Below are positions 35,740-38,809 of a stretch of DNA of 64,000 nt, one piece after another (the stretch's first letter is position 1; every line of letters starts with the position of its first letter). Position numbers and translations under genes: made by a program. This stretch comes from an uncultured Clostridia bacterium (GTDB lineage Bacteria > Bacillota > Clostridia > Christensenellales > Borkfalkiaceae): NCBI GenBank assembly GCA_947627765.1, contig CANQXA010000002.1, positions 1 through 64,000 on the forward strand, in the 5' to 3' direction. Under the pieces are notes generated by a model that saw only the letters and a list, made by a program, of their open reading frames with translations, had not been told where the DNA came from and did no database searches.

Positions 35740-37836
35740 TCAAACCACGAAGGGCACGACCGCAAGCCCGAGCGCGAGGACGCTAAGGAGCACGATGGTA
35801 AGCGCCTTGTGATTGGTCACCCAAACGGTCAAACCGCCCGCTTGGGTATAATCCCGACCTTGCTCATAGCAGATACAGCGGTAACGGTAATTTTTGAAGG
35901 CGGCCGTCGCCATTTGCCAATCGGAGAGCAAGCGAAGGGCGGCGCTCCACTCCTCCGAGCCGAACGATACGAGCTTCGAGAGGTACTTTTTATATTTGAC
36001 CGATACCACGATCTGATAGATAAAGACAAAGAGCTGTAAGGCGAAACCGACCCAAAAGGCGACATAAAGCGCGACCATGTCAGGCGCTTTATTGTCTGCC
36101 ATTGTGTTCGAGATGAAGATCACGATAAAGGCGAAGAGGAGGGCAAGTGCGCCGAGACAGCTGAATACGATCCTGAGAATGAGGAATCTACGCTTCCAAG
36201 TGAGGTTCGTCTTGCCGAATTTGGTACAACGGCTTATCTGCCAGCCGAGCAGGGCAAAGACCATAAAAAGCAAGGCGGGAATGAGGAAGCCGAGGAGCAT
36301 CGAAACATCGCCGTAATCTTCATGCAATTTTCTGAAAACCAATGCGTATGCCGTCATACAGAAGAAAAATAGCGAAATCGAGAGGAAGTAGACGGGAACG
36401 GCGGAGATCACGAGCTTGCGCGTTGTACCAATTTGTTGGACGAGCCCGCCGAACTCGGTAGGCGGCGTCTCGGGTTTTTGAGGACGCTCGGGCGCGGCAT
36501 GGGTCGCCTTCCACGCTTCCGCCGTCTGCTTCCTCCGCCCGATTTCCTCTTGCACCGTCGTCTTCTTCGTAAGCAGGAAGCGCAGGAGCATGGAGAAAGG
36601 CACGAAAAAGAGGTACACCACACTTAGGATCAGCGGGACGATGAGGGACGCGTCTCCCTTGCCGAGCCCATTGTTTTTGAGGATCGTACACAGCGCCGCG
36701 GCGGAGATTAAGAGGAGGGTGGGCAGAATGCAGGAGAGAGCGGTCAGAAGCGTACCCTTCTTTTTGATCGCACAGCGGAGGAAGAGCCATATCACGGTAT
36801 AGAAGACCATCAGCACGGCAATGGCGACCATCGCCGCGGCGAGGATGGAGAACGTGGGGATCTTATAGAGGGGTTGCAAAAGGACACTTTTCTGCGAGAG
36901 GAGCGCGTAGAGCGATGTCTCCTTCACGGAAGCTCCGATGAAACCTCCGTTCCAAGCGCGCACGGGGGTGAGGTAGATCAAAAAGAGCGCAAAGCCGAAG
37001 ACCGCAAAGAACATCATGGGCGCGTCGGCGAGAAAGTCGTAGAGCAGAACGGAGATCTTGGTCCGATATTGCGGAACGGGCTCGATGTTGGCAAAGCGTT
37101 TGGGGAGTTTGCGGATCAAGATCACCGCGATAAGCTCGATGACAAGATAGATGTTGGAGAACGCCGCCGCAAGCTGTAAGGCAACGCAGGGCCCACCCAT
37201 GCCCAAGACCGACGTGAGGGAAGCCCTGAGCGAGAGGACGGAAGCGACGTCTGAGAAGACCATCCAAAGGACTGCGCCGACCAGGTTGTACGCGAGGGGA
37301 GAATAGCCACCCTTGCGCACTTTGACCAGCCAGACGATGGAGTATATCGTCAGAAATACGGCGCAGATGACCAGCGAGACGGCTTGCGTGCGGTGCGTGG
37401 GATCGGCGATCCCTTGATAGACGTTCCCGACGCTCATTCCGATCGCCGAATAGGGCGCAAGATAAAAGAGGAAGAGCAATACGGAGATGACAAGGGAGAG
37501 CGCCGCGGGGACGTTGGGCAGAAACGCGTGCAGCCCCCGTGTAAACTTGCCCGCCTGTTTGGGCGCGCGGACGGCTTCCCCGCCGTTTTGCGCGGGCAAA
37601 GCCGCAGACATGGGTAGGGCGGAGCCCGTCATACCCGCTTGCGGAGCGGCTTGCGCTTGGCTCTCCTGCGGCGCCGCGCCAAAGAAGGCGTAGCCGCATT
37701 TCGGGCAGAATTTCGCCCCTTCCGTCTTGGGCGCGCCGCACTGCGGGCACAGGGCGGGATCTTGCCATTTGGCGCCGCATTCGGGGCAGAAATTGCCTTC
37801 GAATACTGTGCCGCAGGAAACGCATTGATGCTTCAT
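35740..37836 (-). CDS. Large zinc-ribbon multi-pass membrane protein
   Basis: 698 residues. Two zinc ribbons fill the first 50 residues (CVSCG...CPECGAKW, CPQCGAPK...CPKCGYAF). A linker follows, then roughly 14 hydrophobic segments in two similar halves separated by a charged stretch (about residues 428-475, EIGRRKQTAEAW). No transport family is recognised. The architecture is shared with the smaller proteins at 3750 and 63073. ACCCGGAGGTTTCAT precedes the start. The mRNA has a ~185-base leader with a large nested hairpin and an intrinsic terminator, suggesting control by attenuation. Confidence 0.75.
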   Translation of the reverse strand: MKHQCVSCGTVFEGNFCPECGAKWQDPALCPQCGAPKTEGAKFCPKCGYAFFGAAPQESQAQAAPQAGMTGSALPMSAALPAQNGGEAVRAPKQAGKFTRGLHAFLPNVPAALSLVISVLLFLFYLAPYSAIGMSVGNVYQGIADPTHRTQAVSLVICAVFLTIYSIVWLVKVRKGGYSPLAYNLVGAVLWMVFSDVASVLSLRASLTSVLGMGGPCVALQLAAAFSNIYLVIELIAVILIRKLPKRFANIEPVPQYRTKISVLLYDFLADAPMMFFAVFGFALFLIYLTPVRAWNGGFIGASVKETSLYALLSQKSVLLQPLYKIPTFSILAAAMVAIAVLMVFYTVIWLFLRCAIKKKGTLLTALSCILPTLLLISAAALCTILKNNGLGKGDASLIVPLILSVVYLFFVPFSMLLRFLLTKKTTVQEEIGRRKQTAEAWKATHAAPERPQKPETPPTEFGGLVQQIGTTRKLVISAVPVYFLSISLFFFCMTAYALVFRKLHEDYGDVSMLLGFLIPALLFMVFALLGWQISRCTKFGKTNLTWKRRFLILRIVFSCLGALALLFAFIVIFISNTMADNKAPDMVALYVAFWVGFALQLFVFIYQIVVSVKYKKYLSKLVSFGSEEWSAALRLLSDWQMATAAFKNYRYRCICYEQGRDYTQAGGLTVWVTNHKALTIVLLSVLALGLAVVPFVV

Positions 37837-37886
37837 ATGAAACCTCCGGGTTCAAGAGTTTCCTTCGTAAGAGCGTTTGAGGGATA

Positions 37887-38020
37887 AAAAAGAGCGCTCC
37901 CGTGAGAGCGCCCGCATGAGTACCCTCATTGCTGCGACACAATTTCCGATAAAAGCATTGAAAAAAAAGGATACACCGATGCCGTTGTATCTTGCTTTTA
38001 TCAGGATTTAATTGTGCCGC
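37887..38020 (-). ncRNA. Structured 5' leader with terminator (riboswitch-like candidate)
   Basis: Read on the minus strand. P1 GCGGCACAATT/AATTGTGTCGC (11 bp, one G-U; 38010-38020 with 37934-37944) encloses P2 GATAAAAGCA/TGCTTTTATC (10 bp, extended by TCC/GGA across a bulged U) and P3 GATACA/TGTATC. Next come a small hairpin ATGAG-GGTA-CTCAT (37916-37929) and an intrinsic terminator GCGCTC-tcacgg-GAGCGC followed by TCTTTTTT (37887-37912). The predicted transcription start is at the first base of P1. The start codon of the membrane gene is about 50 bases downstream. It matches no riboswitch class I recognise. Confidence 0.65.
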
Positions 38021-38026
38021 AAATTT

Positions 38027-38055
38027 ATTCTACTACAACAAACGCGGGAAGTCAA
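38027..38055 (-). promoter_or_regulatory. Sigma-A type promoter of the leader (minus strand)
   Basis: On the minus strand TTGACT (38050-38055), 17-bp spacer, TAGAAT (38027-38032), placing the start at about 38020. Confidence 0.75.
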
Positions 38056-38149: not shown

Positions 38150-38178
38150 TTGACAAGTTTCCCAAAAAGAGGTATAAT
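38150..38178 (+). promoter_or_regulatory. Consensus promoter of a probably leaderless mRNA
   Basis: TTGACA (38150-38155), 17-bp spacer, TATAAT (38173-38178). The ATG is at 38186, seven bases after the -10 box, so the transcript likely begins at or next to the start codon. Confidence 0.8.
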
Positions 38179-38185
38179 AAAAGAT

Positions 38186-38809
38186 ATGGAAGAAAAGGAT
38201 CTTGCGGCGATCATCGGGAAAAATATTACAAGACTTAGAAAACTTTCCGGGATGACCCAGCTCGAGCTCGCCGAAAAACTCAATTATTCCGACAAATCGG
38301 TCTCAAAATGGGAACAGGGGAACGGACTGCCCGACGTACGCATCCTCGTCCAGATCGCGGAGATCTTCAAAGTTTCGGTAGACGATCTCGTCCGCGAGCA
38401 CCGCGTCCATCCCGTCATGCCCAAAAAGACGAAGTCGATCCGCCGCTTCATCATTTTGGGGCTCTCTGTGGGGCTCTGCTGGCTGGTCGCCGTGCTCTGC
38501 TTTGTGCTCGGCGGGCTCATTTCGCCCGATCTCGGCTACCTTTGGCTCGCATTCGTCTACGCCGTTCCCGCGTCTGCCGTCGTCGTCCTCGTATTCAGCT
38601 GTATTTGGGGATACCGTTGGACAAGGCTCATCTCCCTGTCCGTCTTGATTTGGACGGCGCTCGCCTGCGCCTATCTCACCGCCTATGCGATTATCGGCTC
38701 GGCGCATCCCACGCTGTGGCTCATCTTTATCATCGGCGTACCGTTACAGCTCCTTGCTCTTTTCTACTTTCTGTGGTGGAAGCGGGCGAACAATTCCAAA
38801 GGTCTCTGA
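38186..38809 (+). CDS. XRE-family regulator with C-terminal membrane helices
   Basis: 207 residues. N-terminal Cro/C1 HTH at about residues 8-65 (ITRLRKLSGMTQLELAEKLNYSDKSVSKWEQGNGLPD), then a linker and four or five hydrophobic segments (about residues 92-200). Membrane-anchored XRE regulators of this type are common in clostridia and often control an adjacent membrane gene. The next gene, a PH-like membrane protein, starts 17 bases later, fitting an operon. The mRNA is probably leaderless: the -10 box ends 7 bases before ATG. Confidence 0.85.
   Translation: MEEKDLAAIIGKNITRLRKLSGMTQLELAEKLNYSDKSVSKWEQGNGLPDVRILVQIAEIFKVSVDDLVREHRVHPVMPKKTKSIRRFIILGLSVGLCWLVAVLCFVLGGLISPDLGYLWLAFVYAVPASAVVVLVFSCIWGYRWTRLISLSVLIWTALACAYLTAYAIIGSAHPTLWLIFIIGVPLQLLALFYFLWWKRANNSKGL

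Follow-up and report, generated by a model that had tools for sequence, protein, structure and literature searches.

Comparative Evidence for a Probable New Class of Promoter-Coupled Transcription Attenuators in Clostridia

Known Systems and Novelty

Terminating riboswitches with pseudoknotted aptamers are close in design to the leader described here. Both are 5′ leaders with a conserved fold, mutually exclusive antiterminator and terminator, and several copies per genome. The present leader, however, has no Rfam 15 match and no identified ligand, and its sensor is one long hairpin in which a strand of the P3 helix is mimicked by the linker. With signalling riboswitches of the c-di-GMP-I/II type it shares a heterogeneous regulon, rich in surface or secreted proteins, and again several copies per genome, but its sequence and fold differ, no Rfam match was obtained and nothing points to a nucleotide second messenger. 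LoaP-dependent and put/EAR antitermination leaders, known from Firmicutes or phages, are likewise structured RNAs at the transcript 5′ end that favour read-through; in contrast, each leader of the present kind has its own terminator and a covarying antiterminator, and its carriers have no LoaP above the cut-off. The T-box has a similar terminator/antiterminator switch in Clostridia, whereas the leader has no Rfam T-box match and a regulon unrelated to amino acids.

The leader was analysed in a 64,000-nt stretch of DNA from an uncultured Clostridia bacterium (the window). Searching the window with Rfam 15 (riboswitches, leaders, T-box, c-di-GMP, sRNA) gave only a tRNA at gathering level. At permissive thresholds the best score near the element was 19.2 bits, against a 50-bit cut-off, and it covered linker and terminator. 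Rfam 15 was also negative for 14 relatives covering all subtypes, in line with the preliminary description, which had recognised no known class. A text search of part of the literature with the P1 sequence and similar motifs, supplementary motif lists being outside its scope, found no description. Fremin and Bhatt (2021, PMC8040213) provided a computed list of 3161 candidate structured RNAs from human microbiome metagenomes, which could contain fragments of the motif; their main text, when searched, yielded no such leader, the supplementary lists being outside the scope. The motif could still figure, without a name, in some large computed list. We judge the leader to represent a new RNA class within a known kind of device. 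It is probably one copy of a hitherto uncatalogued class of promoter-coupled attenuators of transcription in Clostridia, controlled by a strand-exchange cascade; this proposition has comparative support only, without transcript or termination data.

The Leader in the Window

One copy lies in the window, at 38020–37886 on the minus strand; its three helices are nested and are followed by a linker and then a terminator. The features are as follows.

38027–38055, minus strand: sigma70-type promoter TTGACT-17-TAGAAT, with the −10 box ending 6 nt ahead of the element
38010–38020, minus strand: P1 5′ arm GCGGCACAAUU of an 11-bp helix, first base 38020 being the predicted +1
38005–38009, minus strand: J12 asymmetric bulge, AAAUC in this copy, NNAUA in the class consensus
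37994–38004, minus strand: P2 5′ arm, variable in sequence, helix of about one turn (10–11 bp)
37986–37991, minus strand: P3 5′ strand GAUACA, 6-bp helix
37976–37985, minus strand: L3 loop ACGGCAUCGG, conserved
37970–37975, minus strand: P3 3′ strand UGUAUC, which with the adjoining CUU is the alternative partner of J1T (PK1)
37957–37969, minus strand: J32 linker, U-rich
37946–37956, minus strand: P2 3′ arm
37934–37944, minus strand: P1 3′ arm AAUUGUGUCGC
37914–37933, minus strand: J1T switch linker AGCAAUGAGGGUACUCAUGC, partners being the P3 3′ strand (PK1), the terminator 5′ arm (AT) or itself
37892–37913, minus strand: intrinsic terminator hairpin GGGCGCUCU-CACG-GGAGCGCUC, 9 bp
37886–37891, minus strand: U-run of the terminator
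35740–37836, minus strand: downstream gene, 698 aa, N-terminal double zinc ribbon and membrane segments, RBS GGAGG

The architecture given in the preliminary description was recovered in full. The minus-strand promoter places the expected start at the base of the 11-bp helix, with the −10 box six bases before 38020; two further helices lie inside (P2, 10–11 bp, and P3, 6 bp), the three nesting over exactly 87 nt; and a small hairpin (AUGAG-GGUA-CUCAU, self-pairing of J1T) is followed by an intrinsic terminator with U-run and by the RBS, ahead of the start codon of the zinc-ribbon gene at 37836. The 181-nt leader has a minimum free energy of −62 kcal/mol compared with −41.8 ± 3.5 kcal/mol for shuffles (z = −5.7), none of 200 shuffles being as good. 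The claim that the pairing exceeds chance is further borne out by a diverged second copy and by hundreds of copies in relatives with massive compensatory change. The same intergenic region also serves a divergent gene for a helix-turn-helix protein (38186–38809, plus strand), which is accompanied by a perfect TTGACA-17-TATAAT at 38150–38178.

Structure and Covariation

Covariation had been proposed in the preliminary description as the means of checking the element. An alignment of 87 copies was fitted to the structure by a covariance model, which was used in place of a plain MAFFT alignment that misaligned P2. In this alignment 97.1% of cells are paired and two-sided changes occur at 36 of the 37 pairs. 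The covariation score of 0.608 compares with 0.187 for shuffled alignments and 0.07–0.12 when the structure is slid; no control came near, and none of 500 shuffles scored as high. As a check on this fitted alignment, RNAalifold on the plain MAFFT alignment recovered P1 and the terminator without guidance, and 12 of the 20 pairs showed compensation. Covariation thus shows the predicted P1–P2–P3 fold to be a long hairpin.

P2 accommodates nearly all pair types at every position, and P1 shows compensatory variation at its outer pairs, while its ACAA/UUGU is almost invariant. Sensor-like conservation is confined to P1, the AUA bulge and the P3 loop; in the bulge, the conserved bases are found in 129 (A), 118 (U) and 123 (A) of 131 copies. 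This pattern bears on whether a protein controls the leader, an RNA-binding antiterminator or repressor reading P1 and the AUA bulge so that the exchange of P3, PK1 and AT is only the output. The near-invariance of ACAA/UUGU despite its helical position and the conserved bulge fit such a site, strongly conserved helices being common in protein sites, but the P3 loop is likewise conserved and no candidate protein was found, so that we regard protein control as unlikely though still a serious competitor. LoaP was rejected as a trans factor: with NF033641, no match over the cut-off was found in 21 genomes, including the carriers G000, G117, G123 and G140, each genome giving one NusG-like match.

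The second pair of P3 is open in 25 copies despite a near-constant 3′ strand, which would be expected if another partner holds that strand. A divergent subtype (L048, L089, L090, L054, L058, L055) has the loop GCCAAU, and some of its members have the linker UUGG before the terminator, which suggests a second pseudoknot between L3 and the 3′ end of J1T; the overall z for this pairing is −7.0 over all copies.

Proposed Strand Exchange between P3, PK1, AT and the Terminator

J1T mimics the P3 5′ strand and is complementary both to the P3 3′ strand (PK1) and, within the terminator, to the 5′ arm and loop (AT), from which it is inferred that P3, PK1, AT and the terminator form a strand-exchange cascade. 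In subtype a, GGGAUAC of J1T faces GUAUCC of P3, and in an example of subtype c, GAG-UU-AUGCGUUUUU of J1T faces AAAAACGCAU-CUC. These pairings were examined by scoring each linker against its own hairpin and against those of other copies, with relatedness not fully corrected. For PK1, J1T against the 3′ half of the hairpin gave −12.96 kcal/mol for own and −8.73 kcal/mol for cross pairs (z = −16.8, subject to that reservation), whereas the control with the 5′ half gave z = +1.6. Two-sided changes in PK1 number 14 versus 3.5 in shuffles. Within subtypes, PK1 is supported in c (p = 2 × 10⁻⁹) and in a (p = 0.003), where the support comes mostly from conserved rather than covarying pairs; within subtype b there is no support (p = 0.99).

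The evidence for AT is more uniform. Own versus cross scoring, with the same incomplete correction for relatedness, gave z values of −17.1 and −17.4, and the pairing is supported within each of the three subtypes a, b and c (p ≤ 0.0015). In the examples L010, L136 and L018, AT is at least as stable as the terminator. The overlap of PK1 and AT in J1T is partial, from about three bases in some subtype-a copies (by eye) to the greater part of the helix in subtype c. A cis-acting attenuator should possess a mutually exclusive antiterminator pairing that is kept by compensatory change, as AT is here.

In the window copy, AT (−9.5 kcal/mol) is weaker than the terminator (−14.0 kcal/mol) and competes with the local J1T hairpin, which may shift this copy towards termination. 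L005 and L006, the zinc-ribbon relatives nearest to it, have the same extra hairpin and weak AT. In subtype a (L010, L018, L067), UUGCGGGC ahead of the terminator often has a counterpart, GCCCGCAA, directly behind the U-run; the two make up an inverted repeat around the terminator, which is formable only in read-through RNA and is not found in the window copy.

Proposed Mechanism

Judging from promoter spacing, the RNA would start at the base of P1. The P3 3′ strand could pair either inside the hairpin, as P3, or with J1T, as PK1 (covariation in subtypes a and c), while J1T has a further possible partner in the terminator, whose 5′ arm and loop it can bind as AT (covariation). As J1T cannot fully make both pairings, two states are inferred: P3 would leave J1T free for AT and hence read-through, while PK1 would occupy J1T, allowing the terminator to form and transcription to terminate. 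A signal acting on the conserved region of P1, AUA bulge and P3 loop is inferred to tip this balance, its identity and the sign of control being undetermined; a small molecule or ion is inferred as most likely, otherwise a protein. Control would be exerted in cis on one downstream gene or operon. This switching model is founded on covariation and not on experiment; with the alignments and models, it can be put to a direct test in vitro.

Distribution

With the leader DNA as query, a second copy was found in the same genome (C4:15711–15838), 70% identical and ahead of a lipoprotein gene, bringing the source genome to two copies, and copies were found in 27 of 151 genomes of the same family. Covariance model R1, built from five aligned copies, was run on 347 genomes of the order and was positive in 30 of them, spread over eight families; R2, built from 87 copies and applied to 391 genomes across the class, was positive in 45. 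The E-values of these home-made models are rough. Carriers thus belong to at least eight families within the order and to 13 others elsewhere in the class. Among genomes of the same genus 54 of 61 were positive with R2, with up to 12 copies each, while of 300 genomes drawn from the phylum only the window's own was positive (0 of 299 others).

The exact P1-arm pattern occurs in at least 120 stretches of the GTDB genome collection. The matches listed are mostly metagenome-assembled genomes named Clostridia, Oscillospiraceae, Ruminococcaceae or Lachnospiraceae and include one cultured carrier, Cuneatibacter caecimuris DSM 29486 (L198). The pattern was also found in 25 stretches or contigs of IMG/VR. 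The two contigs checked, L257 and L264, encode a phage-type polymerase family (phrog_4291) and an exonuclease (phrog_3953) 3′ of the leader, which suggests that phages, too, make use of it. One phage-contig copy used as query found no near relative in the named phage and plasmid collections. In L257, L264 and L198 a small gene lies downstream of the leader, followed in L257 and L264 by the phrog_3953 and phrog_4291 genes; the reading frames of L198 match their gene sizes, the identity resting on size only. The class appears uncatalogued; its members, well over a hundred, come from common, mostly uncultured gut bacteria and from phage-like contigs.

Such a distribution raises the reading that had been named as a possible refutation, an unrelated dispersed repeat, here a repeat without regulatory function, or a miniature mobile element bearing long inverted arms. 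The element is indeed dispersed, several copies per genome varying in number among congeners (0–12), and its near-palindromic hairpin gives model matches on the antisense strand too. A mobile repeat should, however, have near-identical copies placed regardless of genes. Neither holds: P2 differs between copies yet stays paired, divergence is strong even between the two copies of the source genome, and the promoter spacing is fixed with a start codon downstream. We therefore consider a mere repeat hardly credible and rejected it; its own promoter and terminator, the variable but paired P2 and the genes directly behind make the element a regulon leader.

Gene Context and Promoter Coupling

The −10 box lies 6–7 nt ahead of P1 in 114 of 131 unique exact-pattern copies, and an extended TGn accompanies the −10 box in 107 of the 131. 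Tandem leaders precede one gene at L067:2927–3327, L030:1451–1795 and L118:1259–1665; in these three pairs both copies have their own promoter at the usual spacing. Downstream, of 117 copies, 78 are followed by a start codon with RBS within 60 nt of the U-run (median 29 nt), compared with 7 in the divergent control; 24 have no ORF within 150 nt. A leader of a cis-acting attenuator should lie 5′ of a gene with its terminator directly ahead, as is the case here.

An independent sRNA gene of about 135–165 nt, acting in trans and merely located 5′ of genes, would also be a complete promoter-to-terminator unit in many copies, some without a nearby ORF and some in tandem with individual promoters. 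Yet the same-strand genes begin so close behind the U-run that little room is left for another promoter, and a conserved antiterminator pairing would be purposeless in a plain sRNA; we hold this explanation to be improbable. The reading as a transcription-attenuating riboswitch or protein-binding leader, advanced in the preliminary description, is supported by the comparative evidence. That description had recognised the leader and overlooked its second copy, its class-wide distribution, the exchange of pseudoknot and antiterminator, and the variety of downstream genes.

Among 146 downstream proteins, 31 are of BspA-type LRR and about eight belong to zinc-ribbon families, with fewer AMP-binding enzymes, M23 peptidases, DUF4230, EcsC and T5orf172 proteins and a methyltransferase. 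In the exact-pattern set, 35 of 104 downstream proteins have a lipobox-like start and 60 of 104 a hydrophobic N-terminus. Zinc sensing, considered on account of the gene in the window, is not favoured, since the zinc ribbon is one of many downstream kinds, many of them lipoprotein-like, and metal sensing is not specially indicated. By inference, the mixed regulon suggests that the signal is general and not the metabolite of one pathway. Whether the attenuator is a new riboswitch class for a global signal (metabolite, ion or second messenger), serving genes for surface lipoproteins and LRR proteins, among others, and adopted by phages for their own operons, can be put forward only tentatively, at somewhat less than even chances, ligand binding not having been shown. 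As the regulon is rich in host-facing surface proteins, identifying the trigger could reveal a signal sensed by many gut Clostridia. In one genome (G042), three leaders (L067, L076, L077) precede near-identical 88-aa genes (MKYYKEQNGEET...), a small family travelling with the leader.
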